20,550 nt of DNA, taken from positions 1-20,550 of the IMG/VR virus record IMGVR_UViG_3300028417_000020. One strand, written 5' to 3'. Under the pieces are notes generated by a model. It did not search any database and was not told the origin of the DNA. It saw nothing but the letters and a program-made list of their open reading frames with translations. Below are positions 5,111 through 19,630 of the stretch, piece by piece; position 1 is the stretch's first letter, and every line of letters starts with the position of its first letter. The translations under genes and the position numbers were made by a program. The stretch comes from a virus.

Positions 5111-5442
5111 GGCGTTTTCGGCTGGCCGCCCTGAATGCCTATCGCGAAATGTTCGGAATGGTGCGCACGGATCATTTGTGCGAGGGCTGGCGCAAGCTGG
5201 CACAGGAACCCGAGGTGATCAGTGATCTGGTCACTTTGGGCCACCTGTTCGAGCCTGACATCGATCCGGACACCGGCGAATTATACCCAGATAGCGAGCT
5301 GCGCGTGCGCGCCGCCCGCAAGGCGATGTCCCTGCAATTGCTGGCCCGCGCCGAAATTACCCATGAAGACCTAAACCTGATCAGACAAAAGGATGATGAT
5401 TATGACTATTTTGCAGATGATGACGGCGAAAACGCTGGCTGA
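5107..5442 (+). CDS. Bbp19-like phage protein
   Basis: 111 residues with a GTG start that overlaps the portal stop (GTGA, 5107-5110). It resembles the Bbp19 family first seen in Bordetella phage BPP-1: a short helical protein beginning with a YREMF-like motif (here LNAYREMFGM), followed by FEPDIDPDTGELYPDSELRVRAARKAM, and ending in an acidic tail (KDDDYDYFADDD). In BPP-1-type phages it lies between portal and scaffold genes, as it does here. Its molecular job is not known; a role in capsid assembly or portal incorporation is inferred from position only. The end overlaps the scaffold start by about 40 bases in another frame. Confidence 0.7.
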   Translation: MRRFRLAALNAYREMFGMVRTDHLCEGWRKLAQEPEVISDLVTLGHLFEPDIDPDTGELYPDSELRVRAARKAMSLQLLARAEITHEDLNLIRQKDDDYDYFADDDGENAG

Positions 5443-6445
5443 AAATCTGGGCATTTGTTTTGCCGCAGATGACGGCGCTGGCGCTGGGGCCCCGCCCGCG
5501 GGTGACGAGCCGCCAAAAGGTGAAGAACCACCAAAGGGCGAAACCCCACCCGCGGGTGACGAGCCGCCAAAAGGCAACGAGCCACCAAAGGGCGAGGAGC
5601 CGCCAAAGGACGACAAGCCGTGGTATGAAGCCCGCGAATGGACCGACCCCGCGTTGCAAGAGCAGCTGATCAAGGCTGGATACCACAAGGGAACCCCAGA
5701 GGAAGCGCTGGAAAATGTGCTGAAAAACGAAGCATCCCTGACCCGGCGTCTGGGTAAGCCTGCTGATCAGTTTATGGACAAGCCAGCCGATGATCAGGCC
5801 CTGAAAGATTACTTCAAGGCCAATGCGGACACGTTCAAGGTTCCGGAACGCGCGGATGGTTACGAAATTACAATGCCGGACGATATGCCGGAGAACCTGC
5901 CGATCGATGAAAACTTTCTGGGCGCGTTCAAGAATTTTGCACATGAAAAATCGTATCCGCCGGAAGTCGTGCAGGGCGCGGTTAATTTTTATGCCGAGGC
6001 TATGAAGGCTCAATTTGTCGAGGCTGAAACCACCATCGCCAATCTGGAAGAAAAGCTGAACACGGATTTGCAGAGCGAATGGGGGGCTGATTGGAAGTCA
6101 AACAAGGAACTTGCGACCCGCACATTCCAGACACTGGCCGCCAAGATGAAACTTGATCCGGATCAAACAAAACTGATCGCCAGCAAGTTGAACGATGATA
6201 TGGGCGATGCTGCATTGCTGAAGTTTTTCAATGGTATCGGTAAGTTGACTGGCGAAGACGGACTTGTCGTGCCTAGGGACAGTAATGCGCCGGCCCTTGA
6301 TCTGGCCAATGCCCAGCAGCGCAAGGCTGCAATAATGGAGGCCCACACGGGCGAAATGGCGCAGGCGCGCGGGAACACCCAGAAGATCAAAACATTGCAG
6401 GAAGAATTGCGCGGTCTAAATACGATCATCGCGCAACACGGCTAA
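5402..6445 (+). CDS. Capsid scaffolding protein
   Basis: About 347 residues. It would guide assembly of the capsid shell and then leave or be degraded. Features fit a scaffold: an acidic, proline-rich disordered N-terminal region (roughly residues 21-73, repeats of DEPPKGEE type), a central charged segment, and a helical C-terminal half with heptad-like stretches (FVEAETTIANLEEKL; KIKTLQEELRGLNTII) that suggest a coiled coil. Its place between Bbp19-like and capsid genes is the usual place for scaffolds in this group. Several in-frame ATGs are possible (5393, 5396, 5402, 5417). The one at 5402 is preferred because AAAAGG (5387-5392) lies nine bases upstream. The stop (6445) is followed by the 319-base gap before the capsid gene. 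Confidence 0.85.
   Translation: MTILQMMTAKTLAENLGICFAADDGAGAGAPPAGDEPPKGEEPPKGETPPAGDEPPKGNEPPKGEEPPKDDKPWYEAREWTDPALQEQLIKAGYHKGTPEEALENVLKNEASLTRRLGKPADQFMDKPADDQALKDYFKANADTFKVPERADGYEITMPDDMPENLPIDENFLGAFKNFAHEKSYPPEVVQGAVNFYAEAMKAQFVEAETTIANLEEKLNTDLQSEWGADWKSNKELATRTFQTLAAKMKLDPDQTKLIASKLNDDMGDAALLKFFNGIGKLTGEDGLVVPRDSNAPALDLANAQQRKAAIMEAHTGEMAQARGNTQKIKTLQEELRGLNTIIAQHG
5495..5602 (+). repeat. 54-base in-frame tandem repeat in the scaffold gene
   Basis: Two adjacent 54-base units (5495-5548 and 5549-5602) begin with an identical 26-base block and then diverge slightly. Each encodes an 18-residue block of the form PAGDEPPKG.EPPKGE.P, and part of a third unit follows. The result is an acidic, proline-rich spacer. 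Because the length is a multiple of three, copy number can change by slippage without breaking the frame. Confidence 0.9.
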
Positions 6446-6764: not shown

Positions 6765-7703
6765 ATGAGCTACGCTGAACGCTTCGACCAAACCAAACAA
6801 ATCAATTTCATGGATCACGCCAAACTTGCGGCCGATCACAACGAAAGCAAGCTGCGCGGTGCTGTGACGGAACAAACCTGTTCCGGCGAACAATCCGCGC
6901 CGGTGCTGTATTACGATAGCGGCAAGGCGCGACGTACCGAGGGGCGCGTGCCGTCAAATCGCGATACGCCGGCCAACCGCCGCCGGCGCTGGCTGAAATT
7001 CCTGCCGGACTTTGACAGCGGCGAATATATCGACAGCCAGGACAAATTCCAGGGCATGTCTGATTTCCGGTCGCCGCTGATGATGCACCACCTGGGCAAC
7101 ATCAAACGCTTTGTCGATCAGGATGTGATCATCGAAGGCATGTTTGGTGATGCTTATGAGGGAAAGCTGGGCGGTGAGGTAATTCAGCTGCCATCGGCGC
7201 AGGTCATTCCGGCCACTGTTCAGGCGGGTGCCGGCACATCGGCAACGGGTCTGAACCTGCAAAAGCTGAAGGCCAGCCGCAAGAAGAAAGCCCTGGCCAA
7301 GCATGATCTGGACGCCGAACCGATCTGGATTGCTCTGACGGCCGAGCAGATTGACGATCTGTCAAACGAAATCGAGCTGACAAGCTCTGATTATCGTCGC
7401 GAGGCCGGGCCGCAATTCAGCAGCGATGGCAAACTGACTATGGTCTGGAACCATATGTTCATCGAGTATCAGGATCTGCCCACCAAGGAAGTGGACTACG
7501 GTGCGGGCCTAAAGCTGATCCAGCGGATCCCGACATGGCTGAAATCCACCGTCTATCTTGGTGTTTGGAAGGATGTCACATCGGATGCTTACGCGGACCC
7601 GTCCAAATCTGGCAGGCCGCTTTACATGGACCACCGCGCCAATATGGATTGTCGCCGTGTCGATGAAACCGGCTTTGATGAAATCGAGTGCCTGATCGGC
7701 TGA
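6765..7703 (+). CDS. Major capsid protein
   Basis: 312 residues. It forms the icosahedral shell, expected to have the HK97 fold shared by tailed phages. It resembles the capsid proteins of BPP-1-like podoviruses (Bbp17 type): a helical N-terminus (AERFDQTKQINFMDHAKLAA), a basic stretch (SNRDTPANRRRRW) just before the conserved DFDSGEYIDSQDKFQ segment, and a C-terminal DETGFDEIECLIG. Scaffold before it and decoration after it support the call, as does the strongest-looking expression signal set in the window: its own promoter, a leader and the AAGGAG RBS. The stop (7701-7703) is immediately followed by the overlapping hairpins described separately. No cleaved prohead-protease site is evident and no protease gene is seen. 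Confidence 0.88.
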   Translation: MSYAERFDQTKQINFMDHAKLAADHNESKLRGAVTEQTCSGEQSAPVLYYDSGKARRTEGRVPSNRDTPANRRRRWLKFLPDFDSGEYIDSQDKFQGMSDFRSPLMMHHLGNIKRFVDQDVIIEGMFGDAYEGKLGGEVIQLPSAQVIPATVQAGAGTSATGLNLQKLKASRKKKALAKHDLDAEPIWIALTAEQIDDLSNEIELTSSDYRREAGPQFSSDGKLTMVWNHMFIEYQDLPTKEVDYGAGLKLIQRIPTWLKSTVYLGVWKDVTSDAYADPSKSGRPLYMDHRANMDCRRVDETGFDEIECLIG

Positions 7704-11284: not shown

Positions 11285-11731
11285 ATGTGTGACATGGGCA
11301 TAACAGCAATGGCATTATCTGCGGTTGGCGGAGCTTATTCCGCGATGCAGCAAAATGCGATTGGCAAGCAAAATCAGGCCATCGCAGATGCGCAGTCTGC
11401 ACAAACGCGCGAGATTGGCCGTGCGAACGAACAGAAATCGCGCAGTAAAATGGATCGTCTGATCGCCCAGCAGCGCGGCCAGCTTGCTGCGCGTGGTGTT
11501 CGGCTGGACAGTGTTTCGGCGGAACGGTTGGGCCAAGAGGCCGGTGAGCAGCAAAATGTAGAGGCACAAGCCCAGCGTTTCAACACCGACAGCCGCGCAA
11601 CAGCCCAGACCAATGAAGGGTTGCTGCACCGCGCGCGCGGCCAGTCGGGTGCATTTACCGGCCTTTTGAATACCGGTGCTGGAACCCTGACCGGTGCGCT
11701 GGATCTGTGGCCGGAACTGGCGGGAACGTAA
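11285..11731 (+). CDS. Internal virion protein, T7 gp14-like
   Basis: 148 residues. T7 gp14-type proteins are the smallest of the three ejection proteins and form a pore in the outer membrane. Typical traits are visible: a short hydrophobic N-terminus rich in small residues (GITAMALSAVGGAYSAM, residues about 5-21), followed by a long Ala/Gln/Arg helical region (about 25-115) likely to form a coiled coil, including QNAIGKQNQAIADAQSA and RGQLAARGVRLDS. It begins Met-Cys, as does the small protein at 3294. Position after the nozzle and before the large internal proteins is standard for T7-like core genes. There is only one base between it and the upstream stop, and one base between its stop and the next start. 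The RBS is weak. Confidence 0.8.
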   Translation: MCDMGITAMALSAVGGAYSAMQQNAIGKQNQAIADAQSAQTREIGRANEQKSRSKMDRLIAQQRGQLAARGVRLDSVSAERLGQEAGEQQNVEAQAQRFNTDSRATAQTNEGLLHRARGQSGAFTGLLNTGAGTLTGALDLWPELAGT

Positions 11732-11732
11732 T

Positions 11733-13796
11733 ATGGCATTGATTATTCCAGAGGCGCAAACCCCGTTCGAACCGGTCCAGCAGCCGCGGGTTTCCTATGA
11801 TCAGCCAAACATTGGCGATGGCCTGAAGAAAATAGGCGACATTGGTGTCGCGATCGAGGCCAAGCGCCGCGAAGAAGAACGCGCCAACACAATGCGCGAA
11901 GCCCGCGTGACAGCCGTTGAACGGCTAGGCGATCTGCGCACCCAATACGAACAGGATCCAAACCTGATCGGGTTATCAGATCGATACAATGCGGACGTTG
12001 AGGCGTTGCAAAAAGAACTGGCCGACAGTCTGCCGGAAGGGAAAATGCGCGATGATTTTGATCTGGATTTCCGCCAGGTGGTCGCGCCGCAACGCCAAGC
12101 CGTTTCCAAAAGGGAATTCGCCCTGCGCCGTGATGCCGGCCGCGCCGATCTGAATGCCGGATTGCGCAGCTACGCCCAGCAGGCCGGTGCAGCGCCGGAT
12201 GATGAAAGCCGCGATGCAATCCTGAAAACAGCCGCTGCCGACATCGGTGCCGCTGTTTCGGCCGGATGGTTAAGTGAGCAAGAGGCCGAAAAGCTGCTGT
12301 CCAGCACGATCGAAGGCAGTGTGTCAGCTGCCGCGATCCGCACCTTGCAAGAAGATCCGCGTGCATTTCTGGTTGATGCAAAAGAGGGTAAATACCCATT
12401 GCCACCAGAACAATTGGCCCGGCTTGAGGGGCAAGCAAAATCAGCCATTTCCCGCGAAGACGCCCAGCTTGAGCGCGCCTTGAAGGTTGAGGCGGCGGCG
12501 ACTGCAAAACAGCGCCAGCTGGATGTTGACGGTGCGATTAAAATTCTGGAAAACGGCGGCGCATATGATGGCCTGCCGGAATTATTCGATCGCATAGCCG
12601 GCACCGAAGACGAACAGCGACTGGCGGCAACATTGGCCGCGGTTGGCACGGAAAAGAATTTCACCGTGTTATCACCGCAAGAACAGGCTGCCGTTTTGGC
12701 TGACATCGACGCCAGCCCGACATCTGATCCTGATGACATCGAGCGGCGAAAGCGGTTGCATTCGATCGCCGATGCGACAGAAAAAAGCATCCAGACAGAT
12801 ATTCTGACCCATGTTGCCGATCGCGGTATTCTGGCCCTGCAACCTGTTGATCTGTCAAATCCGGCCAGCATAAAGGCGCGGATTGCGGGTGCTGAAACGG
12901 CATTGGTTGAATTCGGCACGTCACCACAGGATTTTCGCCTGTTCACCAATGGCGAGCGCGACACCTTACAGGCCAGCATCGAAAGTGGTGATCCGGATGC
13001 ACAACTGTCTGTTGCGGTCAGCATCATCGAAGGTTTCGGCGATTATGCCCCGCATGCCCTGAATGAAATTGGTGCATCGGACCCTGTATTCGGATTTGCC
13101 GCGAATTTACTGGAGCAGACCGGCGATCTGGCCACATCGCGCAGCATGTTGGTGGGGCGCAAGATGTTGGCAGATGGCAGCGGTGCCAAGCCCGGTAAAA
13201 CCGTGCGCAGTGCTGTGCGCGCCAAGTATTCCGAAATATACCCGCAAGGCATGTCGCAGCGACTGGAAACCCTGATGAAGGGCGCCGATGCCTATTATGC
13301 TGTTTCCGGTGTTGCCGTTGATCCAGATGCCAGCAACGCCGAAAAGCGCGCCGCATATGAAGATGCGTTCCAAAAGGTTCTGGGTCGCACCGTGCGTGGT
13401 GGAACCCAGATGGGCGGGATCCAGAATGTAAACGGAACGCCAGCATTGTTGCCGCCAAATCTGAATGCAGAGCTGGTCGAGGATGCGCTGCAATCATCAA
13501 CATCCGATCAATTTCTGGCCGCATCGGTTTCCGGAGGGCCGCCCATGTGGGGTGGCGAGATTGTTGGTGGTGCGCAAAAAGATGTCACATCGACATTCGT
13601 GTTTGGAAAATACGACCTGCCAAGTCATCTAAAAGATGCAAAGCTGTTGTCGATCGGTGGCGGGCAATATCTGGTCGGCATCGAACGCGCCAATGGTGAA
13701 ATACGCTACCTTCAGGACGAAAAGGCGCAGGATGGATTTTTCCGCTTGAACCTTGAGGCACTGGTGGGTGTTGGACCCAGAAAGAGGGTGCGATGA
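11733..13796 (+). CDS. Internal virion protein, T7 gp15-like
   Basis: 687 residues. Start ATG 11733 (MALIIPEAQTPFEP) is chosen because it lies one base after the upstream stop; earlier in-frame starts sit inside the previous gene and look like shadow sequence. The protein is largely helical and charged, with an N-terminal block like EAKRREEERANTMREARV and helices around YEQDPN and EALQKELADSLPEGKMRDDF. No catalytic motif is evident. In T7-like phages gp15 is a core protein ejected into the periplasm, where it forms part of the DNA channel. Order in the operon (after gp14-like, before a gp16-like protein) is the main basis. The stop overlaps the next start (ATGA, 13793-13796). Confidence 0.7.
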   Translation: MALIIPEAQTPFEPVQQPRVSYDQPNIGDGLKKIGDIGVAIEAKRREEERANTMREARVTAVERLGDLRTQYEQDPNLIGLSDRYNADVEALQKELADSLPEGKMRDDFDLDFRQVVAPQRQAVSKREFALRRDAGRADLNAGLRSYAQQAGAAPDDESRDAILKTAAADIGAAVSAGWLSEQEAEKLLSSTIEGSVSAAAIRTLQEDPRAFLVDAKEGKYPLPPEQLARLEGQAKSAISREDAQLERALKVEAAATAKQRQLDVDGAIKILENGGAYDGLPELFDRIAGTEDEQRLAATLAAVGTEKNFTVLSPQEQAAVLADIDASPTSDPDDIERRKRLHSIADATEKSIQTDILTHVADRGILALQPVDLSNPASIKARIAGAETALVEFGTSPQDFRLFTNGERDTLQASIESGDPDAQLSVAVSIIEGFGDYAPHALNEIGASDPVFGFAANLLEQTGDLATSRSMLVGRKMLADGSGAKPGKTVRSAVRAKYSEIYPQGMSQRLETLMKGADAYYAVSGVAVDPDASNAEKRAAYEDAFQKVLGRTVRGGTQMGGIQNVNGTPALLPPNLNAELVEDALQSSTSDQFLAASVSGGPPMWGGEIVGGAQKDVTSTFVFGKYDLPSHLKDAKLLSIGGGQYLVGIERANGEIRYLQDEKAQDGFFRLNLEALVGVGPRKRVR

Positions 13797-16546
13797 ACCA
13801 GCTTGTCCCCCCGGCCACACCGACAGAAACGGCGGGCGTTCCCCGCGCGGTTGATGGGCCGGAAACCACAGTTGGCGAATTGACCGGTGCCAGCTTTGAT
13901 CGCGAGGCGATAGATCGTAATTATTTCTGGATGCGCGAACGCCGCACCACGGAAACGCAAAAATCGATGTTGGATGATGTATCCAATCTGGTTTTCGGGG
14001 ATCCGGCAGCCTGGCGTGATTTTCGACAGGACGAAGAAGAATACGACCCGCGCAAAACATTGCGCAAGGTAATAGATGATCCGACCGGCGAAACATCCCG
14101 CGCCGCCGTCCGCGAGGAAAAGTTGGCGGATATGTTTGATCGCCTGGACATCCTACGCGAGTTTGATCCGGGCACATATGCCAATGTTCCGGGATCAGTG
14201 GCTGAATTGAAGGATCTGGCGGAAAACCGCACCAGAACAGATTTGCAGGTAGAAAGCGATGAGATCGATCGCAAAATAGCAAACCGGTCAGATCCAACCG
14301 TTGCTGGTGGCGTTGCCAGCTTTGTTGGTGCATCCGGTGCCGCTATTACAGATGCTGAGGGCCTTGCCACATTGCCATTTGGTGCTGCTGGCCGGGTGAC
14401 ACTGGCCCGACGGGCGTTGATTGAGGGCGCGCTCGGCGGCGGCACCGAGACATTGACCCTGCCGGCATATCGAAATCAGGCCAAGTTTCTGGGGCGTGAA
14501 GCGCCGGATGCCCTAAAGCAAATCCTGTTTGGCACAACTTTCGGAACACTCTTGCCGCTGGCCGGTCGCGGTTTGAAAGTTGGCGCAAATTCGCTAACTC
14601 CGTCGGGCCGCGTGCGCAATCGTGACCTGATCGGTTTCGGCCGCCGTGCTGAAGCCACCCCGCGCGAACGTGGTGCCGCCAATGCGATCGGCCGCGAGAT
14701 AGCCGCTGAAGAAACCGCGCCCGCCGGTGTCGTGCCAGATGAACACGTCGCGCGCATTGATGACGCCGAAGCCCAGCTGGATGCTGGCAAAATCCCACCT
14801 GTGCGTGTTCCGGATGAAGTGCCGGTCACTTATGCAACTGCTGGAAAAATCCGCAATAAACCGGTTAGCGATGATTTTTTGTCGCGTTTGCGTGTGGCTG
14901 TTGCACCTTTGGGAGATGATATAGGGGTGATGATAACGTCTGGCGGTCAGGATCGCATTGGCACGCCGGGCGCGCGGCGCATCGGATCAACGCGCCATGA
15001 TGTGGATGATACCGGGCACAGTCATACCGGTGATCTGGTTTTGACCAGAAATGGAAAGCCAGTCAAGCCCGGTCAGGATCGCGAACTATATCAGCGTTTC
15101 TTTTTCAACGCTGCCGCGCAATTTCCAGGCATTGGCCATTATGAATGGGGCGTTCACGTTGGCAGCGGAGCTGTCGCGGCCTGGGGCCCCACAACACACG
15201 CGGCATCGCTGGATCCGGCTTTTGGTGACGCCATAAAGGCAGGCCGTGAAGGTTTTACTGGCTGGGCCCCGCGGGCAAACAGTGGCGTTGCGGGTTCGCC
15301 AGGCACGGCCGCATCGACTAACGGTCAGGCTGTTTCTGTGTCGGATGGGGCGGGCGTTCCAGGCGCCAGCTTTGACGCACCTGAAATTACGTTTGGTGGC
15401 GGTGCTGATGCGTCGCGGCCGCGAGTGAAGGAGCTTTTGGGGCGATACGAAGCGGCTGAAGCCAGGCGCAAAGACTTAGGGTCTGGATCTGTTGCCGAGG
15501 CGCGGGCGGTCGCGGCCGAGCTGGATAGTGTTTTGAAGGAATTGAAAGCTATCGAGGGGTTGCCTCCAGGGAGTGTCCTGAAAGGATTGGATAATAACCG
15601 TGCAGCGCAATTGGCGGATATACCGCAATCAGGGTCGCTGGTAAAACTGATCGAAGATGGTGTGAGTGTTGCTGAAATTTTAAAGTCAGATGATTTCAAA
15701 AGGTATTCTGATTTCTATTTGGGCGGCGGAAAGCAGAGATTTTTCAATGAGGATGCGCAGGCTTTACGTGATGCTATCACCAGCCCCGGTGTTGTTCGCA
15801 ACGAGGGTGAAGGGTGGGTGGCAATTGACCGAAAAACTGGGGAAATCGCCCTGGTCACTCAGCGACGCGAGGTGGCCAGAAAGGTAAATCCACACAAATA
15901 TATCGTTTTGCCTGACGCTGAGCATTTGGCATTGAGAAATGCCGCGATCAAAGCTGGAAGAATGCGTGATGGGCCGAACGGAAAGGTGGCAATAGTCACC
16001 CCTGATGAAGCGATTGGTGCTGCCCGTCGCATTAGCGCCGCCGCCGGTAAAAAAGGTGAACCGGCCTTACGTCAAAATGTTGGTGAGGTAAAAGAGGCGT
16101 TAGAGGCTGTTGCGCGCGATTTGCAGTCTGATCCTGAACTTAAAGATGCCGTCCAAACCGTCATCGACGCTATCACCGGCGCAGATCGACCGCATCGAGC
16201 AGGAGCTGCTAAAGCTGGACCTGATGGAAATGGCGGCAAGGCAGCGGATGGCCAGCTGAATTTTGATGCCGAGCCGGAAGAGCCTGTGGGTTCCGCCCTG
16301 CGCGATCTGGATCTGTTTGAGGATCCAGTCGAGGGTCGCGGAACCTTGATGCAGGTCGATGGCATCGAGCGCGATTTGCGCCGCCAGATTGCCGACAATC
16401 CCAAAGCCGACATCGAGATCCCGCTTGAAACCGGTGATGGCGCTGCAAGAGCGCGCGTGTCCGAGATCCTGAATGACATCGATGACGAGCAAAATTTCTT
16501 CGAAGAATTTGAACTGTGCATGCCCAAAGGAGCAACCAATGGCTAA
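13793..16546 (+). CDS. Large internal virion protein with embedded M15-like peptidase domain
   Basis: 917 residues. The N-terminal part (about 1-340) is helical with a Gly/Ala-rich hydrophobic stretch near 170-262 that may insert in membranes. Residues about 345-485 look like an M15-type zinc peptidase (D-Ala-D-Ala carboxypeptidase/endopeptidase fold): GSTRHDVDD (His402), GHSHTGDL (His411, Asp414) and EWGVHVG (Glu451, His455), matching the family pattern of an H...D pair followed by an E..H pair. That would cut cell-wall peptides during DNA entry, as the transglycosylase domain of T7 gp16 cuts glycan strands. A segment of about residues 540-740 has low GC (25 of 80 bases at 15641-15720) and no recognised domain. 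The C-terminus is acidic. The last eight bases overlap the next gene, which has its own RBS. Confidence 0.75.
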   Translation: MNQLVPPATPTETAGVPRAVDGPETTVGELTGASFDREAIDRNYFWMRERRTTETQKSMLDDVSNLVFGDPAAWRDFRQDEEEYDPRKTLRKVIDDPTGETSRAAVREEKLADMFDRLDILREFDPGTYANVPGSVAELKDLAENRTRTDLQVESDEIDRKIANRSDPTVAGGVASFVGASGAAITDAEGLATLPFGAAGRVTLARRALIEGALGGGTETLTLPAYRNQAKFLGREAPDALKQILFGTTFGTLLPLAGRGLKVGANSLTPSGRVRNRDLIGFGRRAEATPRERGAANAIGREIAAEETAPAGVVPDEHVARIDDAEAQLDAGKIPPVRVPDEVPVTYATAGKIRNKPVSDDFLSRLRVAVAPLGDDIGVMITSGGQDRIGTPGARRIGSTRHDVDDTGHSHTGDLVLTRNGKPVKPGQDRELYQRFFFNAAAQFPGIGHYEWGVHVGSGAVAAWGPTTHAASLDPAFGDAIKAGREGFTGWAPRANSGVAGSPGTAASTNGQAVSVSDGAGVPGASFDAPEITFGGGADASRPRVKELLGRYEAAEARRKDLGSGSVAEARAVAAELDSVLKELKAIEGLPPGSVLKGLDNNRAAQLADIPQSGSLVKLIEDGVSVAEILKSDDFKRYSDFYLGGGKQRFFNEDAQALRDAITSPGVVRNEGEGWVAIDRKTGEIALVTQRREVARKVNPHKYIVLPDAEHLALRNAAIKAGRMRDGPNGKVAIVTPDEAIGAARRISAAAGKKGEPALRQNVGEVKEALEAVARDLQSDPELKDAVQTVIDAITGADRPHRAGAAKAGPDGNGGKAADGQLNFDAEPEEPVGSALRDLDLFEDPVEGRGTLMQVDGIERDLRRQIADNPKADIEIPLETGDGAARARVSEILNDIDDEQNFFEEFELCMPKGATNG

Positions 16547-17117
16547 ACGCAAAACCAAACAACAGGCCAAACCGGCCAACGCGCCAAAAGATCTGGCCAA
16601 AACACCACAGCAGGCCGCCGCTACTGCGCCTGCTGACGGCGAAGCGGCGCAAGACAACCCACCGCAGCCGAAATCAGACACAGCCAGTCAGGGCGCGTCT
16701 GACGCGACAAAGGCGGGCGCAAAGCCAACACCCGAAGAAAAGGCGGCGGAAGCCCGCAAAGAGGCCGCGCGCAAAGCCGCTGCCGCGCGCAAGAAGGCAG
16801 CCTATGAGGCATCCCTGCAAGAGCCCTATGAGCATTTGTTCGGTGATTTCCCGATCGCTGCCCTGAAATCTGGTTTTGCAGTGCGGCGCAAAGCATGGTC
16901 GCCCGGGTTCGAGCTGACCCTTTCGCACAAGGGCACCCGCGGAAAACGGGTATCGGCATTTTACCAAAGCGGAACCCGATCGGGACAGATCGAATGGAAG
17001 CCCAAAGCCATCGATGATCTTGTGGCCGGTGACTGGCTGGTGATCATGACTGTGAAGCAGGCGATTGACGCGAAACTGATCGCGCCACCACCAAATGCGG
17101 CGGCGGTTGAAAAATGA
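16539..17117 (+). CDS. Protein with Tad2-like (DUF2829) C-terminal domain
   Basis: 192 residues. ATG 16539 is chosen for the RBS AAAGGAG (16526-16532) six bases upstream; in-frame codons further up lie in the previous gene. Residues 1-95 are Lys/Ala/Pro/Gln-rich low complexity, ending in a basic Ala helix (EEKAAEARKEAARKAAAARKK). Residues about 98-171 resemble DUF2829: F..AALKSGFAVRRKAW (Arg117, Lys118, Trp120), a middle beta region, then W.PKAIDDLVAGDWLVI (Trp153, Asp160, Trp166). DUF2829 includes Tad2, which blocks Thoeris defence by sequestering its cyclic nucleotide signal. Standing between two ejection-protein genes, and with a basic tail, it might be packaged in the virion. The family match is by eye and moderately sure; activity is inferred. 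Confidence 0.6.
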   Translation: MAKRKTKQQAKPANAPKDLAKTPQQAAATAPADGEAAQDNPPQPKSDTASQGASDATKAGAKPTPEEKAAEARKEAARKAAAARKKAAYEASLQEPYEHLFGDFPIAALKSGFAVRRKAWSPGFELTLSHKGTRGKRVSAFYQSGTRSGQIEWKPKAIDDLVAGDWLVIMTVKQAIDAKLIAPPPNAAAVEK

Positions 17118-19630
17118 GCCTGGCCGACTGCATCCAGCGCGCGATCGACAACGGAATGAGCCGGTCGCGCGGCCGCGAGGCCCAGCGACTGTTTGCCGAG
17201 CGCAAGCAGGCCCATGCCCATCTTGGCCCCGGTGCCGATGCGGCCGCGGCCGAGGATGTCTGGCGGCAGATGCGCAAGGATTTTCTGAAACGCAAGCGCA
17301 CCAACCTGATGCAGGCACAGGTCAACAGCCAAACCATCGATGATATTACCACCTATCGCGACAGCAATGGCGTGGCCAATGCCGCCAATGCTTTGCGGCA
17401 AAAGCTGGAATGGGGTCAATCGGCGACATTCCAGGGGGCAACGGCAATCGCAGATGCGCTGAAATCCCAATACATGCGCAAGCTGTCCGGCTTTGTCGAG
17501 CAGCACAAACGCAACATTATCGGCAATATCCGTGGCCGCGCCAAGCTGACCAATATTGTGAAAGAGCTACACGGCACCGCCACGGGAGACGAAGCCGCCA
17601 AGGTAATGGCTGATGCGATCCGCGACACTTTGGAAATGATGCGCAGCGATTTTAACGCGGCCGGCGGTATGATCGGCAAGCTGGATGACTACGGCCTGCC
17701 GCACAGTTGGGAAGTCGGCCAGATCCGGCGTGCCGGTTTCGAGCAATGGGCAACCGATATGGATGCGCGTCTGGACTGGATGCGGATGATCGACAACGAA
17801 ACCACCCGCCCGTTTTCCGGAAGCACGCCCGAGCGCCGGATGCAGTTTCTGCGCGAGATCTACGACAACCTGGACAGCAATGGCTGGAGCCGCCGCGAAC
17901 CAAGCGGCGTGCAATTGGGCAGATCGACCGCAAACAGCCGGTCGGATCATCGCATATTCCACTTCAAATCCGCCGAAGACTGGATGGCGGTCAATGATCT
18001 ATATGGCAGATCGGATGCGTTTTCAGCGATAATCAGCCATGTTGATATGATGTCGCGCGACACCGCCCTGATGCGTGTGCTGGGGCCAAATCCGCGCCTT
18101 GGACTGGAATTTGCCAACCAGACGGCACAGAAGCTGGCGGCGGAACGCCCCTGGAAGCAAAGCTGGATGTCGCGCCGGCTGTATTCATCTGCCCAGCAAG
18201 AGGCGGCAGCTAAATCCATGCAGGCCAACACGATGTTTGATCTATACACTGGCGCTGCCAACAAGGCCGAGGCCGATGTGGTTGCCGGTGCCTTGGGTGG
18301 CTTGCGTCATTTTCTGGTTGCCTCGCAGCTTGGTGGCGCAATGTTGTCAGCTGTTAGCGATGTTGGTTTTATGGAAATGGCCGGCCGCCACGTTGGTATG
18401 GATTTTGGCAAGGTGCTGGGCCGCCACGTCAAGGCGATCGCGTCCAGCAAGCAACGCGAACTTATGGTGCGCACCGGTATCATCGCCGATGCCGCCGCGA
18501 ATGTCGGGGTGGTGCAATCACGCCTGATGGGCGATGCGCATGGCCCTGCGATGGCCGAGCGCCTAAGCGAATTCACCATGCGCGCATCCGGCCTGACCGC
18601 CTGGACCGACATCGGACGCGGCGCATTCCGGCTTGAATTCTATGGTTTTCTGGCCGACAACACCAAACATGCCTGGGCCGATCTGCCGGCCCCCTTGCGC
18701 GAGCTGGTATTCGAGGCACGCGGCATCACCGAGGCTGATTGGGATGTTATTCGCAGCACAAAGCTGTTTCGCGATGAGATCGAGCCGGACGCCAGTTTTC
18801 TAATCCCAGGTGATATTCGCTATCGCACTGATATTGACGCCGATCTGGCAATGGACATTAGCCTGAAGCTGGAAGCCGCAATCCGCGAGCAAATGGAATT
18901 TGCCGTGCCCAGTGCATCCTTGCGTGGCCGCGCCATTTTTCAGGGTGGCGCGCCAGGCTCATTTAAGGGTGAATTGTTGCGATCCGGCATCATGTATAAA
19001 TCCTTTGCCCTGTCGATGGTATTCAACCAGATGGGGCGCGTGCTGTTCCACAAGGTCAGGGGTAGCCGCACCGCAAATGTTGCGCTGTTTGGAACTGTCA
19101 CCACGGTTGCCGGCATGTTGTCGATCCAGATGAAAGAGCTGGCCAAGGGCAATGATCCGCGCCGGATGGATGACAAGAACTTCCTGCTGGCCGCGGTTTT
19201 ACAGGGTGGCGGTCTTGGCATTTTTGGCGATTTTGCCAGCGCCTCGCAAAACAGGTTTGGCGGTGGCATTGCGTCCACTCTAGCAGGTCCAGCCTTCGGT
19301 GCCATTCAGGACACAGCATATTTGACCGGTAGTATTGTAGACGCGATTACCGGCCAAACCGACAAGGACTTCGACCGCCTGGGGCGCACCGCCACAAAGT
19401 TTCTGGATCGGTATTCCGGGCCAACCAACCTTTGGTATGCCAACCAAGCGCTGAACCGCCTGCTGTGGGACAACCTACAGGAATGGGTGGATGGCGATGC
19501 GCAAAAAGCATGGCGGCGCGCTGAAACCCGACGGGTGAATGAATACGGCAACGCCAGTTTTTGGCCGCACGGGCAGCCGTTGCCGCCCAGACTGCCAAAT
19601 CTTTCAAATGCAATTGGAGAACCAAAATGA
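17114..19630 (+). CDS. Large internal virion (ejection) protein
   Basis: 838 residues. The start overlaps the preceding stop (ATGA, 17114-17117). The N-terminal third is helical and charged (MQAQVNSQTIDD, FVEQHKRNIIGNIRG). The C-terminal part contains a short hydrophobic stretch (NVALFGTVTTVAGMLSI), then KELAKGNDPRRM and the hallmark QGGGLGIFGDF (about residues 697-707) followed by NRFGGGIASTLAGP, which recur in the C-terminal region of large podovirus core proteins related to T7 gp16. Near the end are DRYSGPTNLWYANQALNRLLWD and a proline-rich tail. No lytic motif is seen, so the wall-cutting role seems to have moved to the 917-residue protein. It likely forms the inner-membrane part of the DNA-ejection channel. 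The fibre gene starts within its stop codon. Confidence 0.8.
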   Translation: MSLADCIQRAIDNGMSRSRGREAQRLFAERKQAHAHLGPGADAAAAEDVWRQMRKDFLKRKRTNLMQAQVNSQTIDDITTYRDSNGVANAANALRQKLEWGQSATFQGATAIADALKSQYMRKLSGFVEQHKRNIIGNIRGRAKLTNIVKELHGTATGDEAAKVMADAIRDTLEMMRSDFNAAGGMIGKLDDYGLPHSWEVGQIRRAGFEQWATDMDARLDWMRMIDNETTRPFSGSTPERRMQFLREIYDNLDSNGWSRREPSGVQLGRSTANSRSDHRIFHFKSAEDWMAVNDLYGRSDAFSAIISHVDMMSRDTALMRVLGPNPRLGLEFANQTAQKLAAERPWKQSWMSRRLYSSAQQEAAAKSMQANTMFDLYTGAANKAEADVVAGALGGLRHFLVASQLGGAMLSAVSDVGFMEMAGRHVGMDFGKVLGRHVKAIASSKQRELMVRTGIIADAAANVGVVQSRLMGDAHGPAMAERLSEFTMRASGLTAWTDIGRGAFRLEFYGFLADNTKHAWADLPAPLRELVFEARGITEADWDVIRSTKLFRDEIEPDASFLIPGDIRYRTDIDADLAMDISLKLEAAIREQMEFAVPSASLRGRAIFQGGAPGSFKGELLRSGIMYKSFALSMVFNQMGRVLFHKVRGSRTANVALFGTVTTVAGMLSIQMKELAKGNDPRRMDDKNFLLAAVLQGGGLGIFGDFASASQNRFGGGIASTLAGPAFGAIQDTAYLTGSIVDAITGQTDKDFDRLGRTATKFLDRYSGPTNLWYANQALNRLLWDNLQEWVDGDAQKAWRRAETRRVNEYGNASFWPHGQPLPPRLPNLSNAIGEPK

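Follow-up and report, generated by a model that had tools for sequence, protein, structure and literature searches.

Tad2 sponges are homotetramers that bind gcADPR, His-ADPR or cyclic dinucleotides and block Thoeris or CBASS, and genes of the family generally count as anti-defence genes of the early or accessory kind. The major head protein of a phage is a late product. It is this major head protein that activates the Thoeris TIR proteins (PMC12578639), and sponges work stoichiometrically, the ligand pocket of SPO1 Tad2 being lined by the loops beta1-beta2, beta3-beta4 and beta4-alpha3 (reviewed in PMC12043709). The gene considered here lies in a late ejection-protein operon, whereas canonical Tad2 (SPO1 gp34.65, ModTad2, HgmTad2) is encoded in an early or accessory region. 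With the canonical proteins its product shares the alpha1-beta1 framework L.xLK.G..V.R..W, the W...D.LA.DW motif, a Pfam family and the best Foldseek matches; unlike them it is devoid of the GWNGKGM loop, the AADG loop and the long beta2-beta3 insertion, and has a disordered N-terminal extension of ~100 aa. The Tad2-like family is already known, and what is new, to judge from the sequences compared, is a divergent variant in an unusual and conserved late-operon place. Our tentative preference, with a likelihood somewhat short of even, is for a divergent, N-terminally extended Tad2-like protein that is made late, its accessory role being that of a counter-defence sponge with altered ligand specificity.

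The window, meaning the whole stretch of DNA analysed, is a 20,550-base linear IMG/VR fragment with the late genes of a podovirus of the epsilon15/BPP-1/BcepC6B type: large terminase, portal, capsid, tail tube proteins, internal virion proteins and a gp15-gp16-gp17-like ejection cluster (Table 1). The phage is of epsilon15 type and its host probably a marine Rhodobacteraceae, the host being deduced solely from a relative in Oceaniglobus (L095). The gp16 of that relative is 44.7% identical to the window protein across 367 aa and contains a Peptidase M15 domain (PF08291). Ejection proteins of the epsilon15/P22/T7 kind (gp14-16 type; PMC8954989) are genomic neighbours of the Tad2-like gene, in the same operon, but have no homology with its product.

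Table 1. Late-array features of the window that are relevant to the Tad2-like gene
Feature	Coordinates	Strand	Evidence and remarks
Major capsid protein	6765..7703	+	PF19821 E 3.3e-29, phrog_3437 E 4.5e-37; upstream of Tad2-like gene in late array
Internal virion protein (gp14-like)	11285..11731	+	phrog_418 E 7.8e-13
gp15-like head/internal virion protein	11739..13796	+	phrog_992 E 1.5e-6; 43% identity to Oceaniglobus prophage
gp16-like ejection/virion protein gene, 917 aa	13793..16546	+	Synteny with phiV10/BcepC6B/Shamal
Shine-Dalgarno GGAG of extended Tad2-like gene	16529..16532	+	Sequence
Extended Tad2-like gene, 192 aa, pI 9.8	16539..17117	+	ORF, PF11195 match, orthologs L095:7474-8004 and L277 (reverse strand)
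N-terminal low-complexity extension, ~103 residues, Ala/Lys/Pro/Gln-rich	16539..16847	+	Translation, composition; disordered by composition
Tad2-like domain (PF11195), residues 104-168	16848..17042	+	Profile matches; AF2/Foldseek
gp17-like virion structural (ejection) protein gene, 838 aa	17114..19630	+	phrog_684 E 4.8e-150; tblastn relatives

The 5' end of the Tad2-like gene shares 8 nt with the gp16-like gene, whose stop is at 16544-16546, its own stop shares 4 nt with the gp17-like ATG (ATGA, 17114-17117), and the coding strand from 16,000 to 17,400 offers it no separate promoter-like or terminator-like site. Its translation would be by start/stop coupling between the two flanking genes. 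Extension and domain are read in a single open frame, in which the window has no internal ATG before the domain, and the order in the protein is ~103 low-complexity residues, the domain (~104-168) and then a tail of ~24 residues. The first-pass annotation of this DNA had already placed the gene within an ejection-protein operon; that placement is now stronger than the annotation could have known, since the position is kept in three phages.

Membership of the product in PF11195 (Tad2-like, formerly DUF2829; curated cut-off 25 bits) is likely from the sequence matches, though for the window taken alone it is marginal. The whole protein scores 24.4 bits (E 4.2e-5), the trimmed domain 27.0 bits (E 6.4e-6), and a six-frame search of the window gives 26.1 bits, over the cut-off. 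The orthologs from the Oceaniglobus trochenteri prophage (L095) and from IMGVR_UViG_2886545291_000006 (L277) score 38.2 and 24.7-25 bits, respectively, and PF11195 is the sole family matched by each of the three; as the two orthologs were found independently and match this family alone, a chance match is excluded. The original proposal that the C-terminal region fits DUF2829 is upheld by these profile scores of 24-27 bits and the agreement of the orthologs, with the domain boundaries corrected to ~104-168. When a profile from the three orthologs was run against PDB sequences, four came up at E<=10, all of them Tad2 (best E 0.065), and profile-profile comparison with canonical Tad2 was confident over the alpha1-beta1 part, just 17 columns, at a probability of 92%. 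Single-sequence searches of IMG/VR and tblastn of GenBank phages gave no true relative of the domain; the true relatives emerged when GTDB genomes were searched with the gp17 alignment, and from the degenerate motif SG.RSG.IEWKP. For the late sponge, it is a point in favour that three orthologs match PF11195 and no other family, and a point against that the window score sits at the cut-off and the profile-profile match spans so few columns.

From a 40-row alignment with Tad2 sequences included, AF2 yielded a model of pLDDT 66.5 whose confident Foldseek matches in the PDB were all Tad2 (SPO1 Tad2 with prob 1.00 and TMq 0.66), which again favours the late sponge. From two orthologs alone the pLDDT was 53, Foldseek returned no meaningful match and the model was too poor to interpret; this, and the presence of Tad2s in the alignment behind the better model, has to be set against it. 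On the profile matches and the modelling together, a Tad2 fold of the window protein is probable. The PDB matches include chains deposited as AcrIIA7, a type II CRISPR-Cas inhibitor. With such chains in PF11195, and with loop divergence of a sort that would fit a new partner, some other counter-defence or host-takeover activity unrelated to nucleotide signals can be envisaged, for instance anti-CRISPR-like or host-protein binding. AcrIIA7 is, however, closer to canonical Tad2 than to the extended protein and the idea is without specific sequence support, so that it is improbable and is ranked fourth.

What then of the pocket? The Tad2 framework is retained (L..LK.G....R..W, plus a C-terminal W......D.LA.DW). 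In place of the near-universal canonical beta1-beta2 loop R.GWNGKGM, all three orthologs have RR..W[SA]PG[FY], and instead of the AADG-type beta3-beta4 and LASQTD-type beta4-alpha3 loops there are SG[ST]RSG and IEWKP....D, with W, D and DW kept alongside. Residues invariant among the three concentrate where the Tad2 pocket loops align (W.PG; SG[ST]RSG; IEWKP) while the intervening strands vary. Since the pocket-forming loops differ from those of known Tad2, binding of gcADPR is not to be assumed. Conserved replacement of pocket loops would be expected of a binding site with altered specificity, though it is also compatible with a new protein interface. The late sponge reading would have the pocket still bind a small nucleotide-type ligand, with specificity altered; the clustering of invariant residues at pocket-loop positions argues for it and the missing GWNGKGM and ADG loop motifs against it. 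The replacement of the canonical ligand-loop motif also suits a different fate, in which signal binding was lost and the Tad2 fold was co-opted as a morphogenesis or ejection factor, be it assembly chaperone, core component or linker. The location of the invariant residues, mainly at pocket-loop positions, is unfavourable to such a structural role, which is rather unlikely and is ranked second.

The distribution of the gene bears on the same choice. Alignment of gp17 provided 80 IMG/VR and 80 GTDB loci. Of the 74 IMG/VR loci that show the upstream gene, 71 have gp16 and gp17 within about 13 nt of each other, and the bacterial (GTDB) loci mostly abut likewise, with exceptions. No Tad2-like gene occupies the gp16/gp17 junction in any of the 80 IMG/VR records, and just one of them has a Tad2-like match anywhere; phiV10, BcepC6B and the further relatives inspected yielded no such gene, and the extended form was not found in 397 Rhodobacteraceae and 385 Alphaproteobacteria genomes, the Oceaniglobus one excepted. 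The three carriers (the window, the Oceaniglobus prophage and IMGVR_UViG_2886545291_000006) have it at the same junction with overlaps of 4-8 nt, and are monophyletic in the gp17 tree with support 100/100. Their gp17 identity with the window is 52-62%; among the carriers the Tad2-like domain is 48-52% identical and gp15/gp16 35-45%. Given one clade of this divergence with the gene in the same place and overlapping codons in each member, it was acquired once, probably in the ancestor of the carrier clade, and then retained. A recent moron was considered and rejected, the carriers being one clade at that gp17 identity with the gene at the same position, and no promoter-like or terminator-like site setting off the gene in the window. 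In a related IMG/VR phage (L090/L091; G079:C1:36249-36451) a Tad2-like gene at 36.2-36.5 kb is split over two frames, by a frameshift or an assembly error.

The constancy of gene, junction and overlaps in a well-supported clade is in accord with the late sponge. However, single acquisition with long retention in a tightly overlapped virion operon, and a domain divergence resembling that of gp15/gp16, could equally mean a structural role among the ejection genes. Against the latter, some 150 more distantly related phages possess these virion proteins but not the gene, gp16 and gp17 mostly abutting in them; it is therefore not a core virion function. In addition, unrelated small genes fill the gp16/gp17 junction in other relatives, which means that the junction tolerates accessory genes, a point for the sponge reading and against the structural one.

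The occupants of the junction are themselves diverse. In Mesorhizobium prophages (L151:7723-8001, L173:7318-7599) the site is taken by a short 'YRKKPVVIEA...PGDW' protein (phrog_419). Its domain also precedes Tad2-like domains in fusions at two other loci (L196, L264) and recurs within a PHROG annotated nucleotide pyrophosphohydrolase, a hint that genes at this site may serve some accessory function connected with nucleotides. An apparent minus-strand gene at L004:5450-6000, read directly, ends in a zinc-ribbon-like Cys motif (CTHC...CPAC), and a like gene at L161:7416-7997 is presumed from similarity to the L004 sequence. Pseudomonas prophages (L153:7199-7570, L160:7164-7598) have an unrelated small lipoprotein-like gene (phrog_3716 for L153). 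Elsewhere, the Tad2-like domain of phage N4 gp49 (L191:4755-5237) is encoded directly beside the virion RNA polymerase, an ejected protein, but on the opposite strand.

The N-terminal extension is low-complexity in all three orthologs and measures ~103 residues (window), ~100 (L095) and ~115 (L277). The sequences are unlike, Ala/Lys-rich and basic in the window, Ala/Thr/Pro/Lys-rich and acidic in L095, and acidic with GDQPEA repeats in L277, the contrast in pI being 9.5 versus 4.6; a short Lys/Arg-containing stretch opens it in all three. Of the Lys/Ala-rich disordered extension described at the outset, the disordered-looking part is always present but the Lys/Ala-rich character is not conserved. 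These differences in charge and sequence led to rejection of the basic Lys/Ala tail as a conserved tag for DNA binding or packaging, and the extension would most likely be a tether or spacer. N-terminal additions are common on Tad2: a 'YIGTK...GYLVEY...GYISWSP' domain is present on many canonical phage Tad2 (L195, L201, L204, L212, L220, L235 and others), among which disordered additions were not seen. Another low-complexity stretch in the late proteins of the window consists of PPKGEE/PPAGDE repeats near the N-terminus of the scaffold/protease-like protein (5393-6445).

The prophage of Oceaniglobus trochenteri G4, a cultured lysogen, has two members of the family. It extends for 39.5 kb between 51-bp direct repeats (contig positions 73,623 and 113,087), presumably att sites resembling a tRNA 3' end, and encodes a CI-like repressor. 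Directly upstream of its Toprim primase is an early Tad2 (G081:C13:80632-81150 = L179:10633-11151; 172 aa, 88.6 bits) with canonical motifs, fused to a YYGTK...GYISWSP domain; the extended late gene is 23 kb beyond, within the virion operon. The two are of one family in one prophage but differ in motifs and location, and the late gene as a recent duplicate of the early one was rejected, identity of late with canonical being about 25% and the loops different. IMGVR_UViG_2886545291_000006 has the late gene only, with no second Tad2-family gene, and the window fragment covers the genome up to a point short of the early region. As to the defence presumed to be countered, searches of the Oceaniglobus genome itself turned up neither ThsA nor ThsB, which counts against the late sponge. 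In its favour, 15 of 150 Rhodobacteraceae genomes have ThsB-type TIR genes, one with an adjacent ThsA-type STALD gene, so that the target defence exists in likely hosts.

Timing is central to how such a protein would act. On the late sponge reading it would be produced late, simultaneously with the major capsid protein, whose gene is upstream on the same strand, and its counter-defence role would be an accessory one. As the major head protein triggers Thoeris (PMC12578639), a sponge from the late operon would appear when the trigger does, and packaging would not be required. The first-pass annotation had instead envisaged a virion-carried protein acting at once on infection, in contrast to an early Tad2 that has first to be made. 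Incorporated with the ejection proteins, perhaps via the disordered extension, it would be delivered with the DNA against the first defence signals. The conserved overlapping-codon position between two ejection-type genes in three phages is consistent with this, as is the constant presence of an extension with its short Lys/Arg-containing start. There is also precedent in the P1 anti-restriction proteins DarA/Hdf, which are inside the head (PMC12810830); the two cases share the idea of countering defence with a protein produced alongside the virion or riding in it, but the sequences are unrelated and packaging, proven for DarA/Hdf, is for the Tad2-like protein a hypothesis. The contrast drawn between immediate and delayed action is weakened on several counts: the trigger comes late, the Oceaniglobus phage encodes an early Tad2 of its own besides, and in a cell of ~1 fL (1 molecule = 1.7 nM) a few tens of copies from the particle would amount to only tens of nM, a weak sponge where action is stoichiometric. 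The extension, moreover, is conserved in neither sequence nor charge. Packaging is decidedly unlikely and ranks third, below a structural or ejection role and, first, the late specificity-shifted binder. A long shot is a two-stage deployment of sponges in one lineage: first a soluble early Tad2 of canonical type, then a late extended one of shifted specificity, packaged along with the ejection proteins and entering the cell with the DNA; if true, it would be, to our knowledge, the first virion-carried sponge for a nucleotide signal.

The extended genes mark a Tad2 subfamily with new pocket motifs. With a diverged form fixed in the late ejection operon, and an early canonical copy besides in one member, phages may time or target their sponges to the capsid-triggered stage of Thoeris or, alternatively, may carry Tad2-family sponges in the particle.
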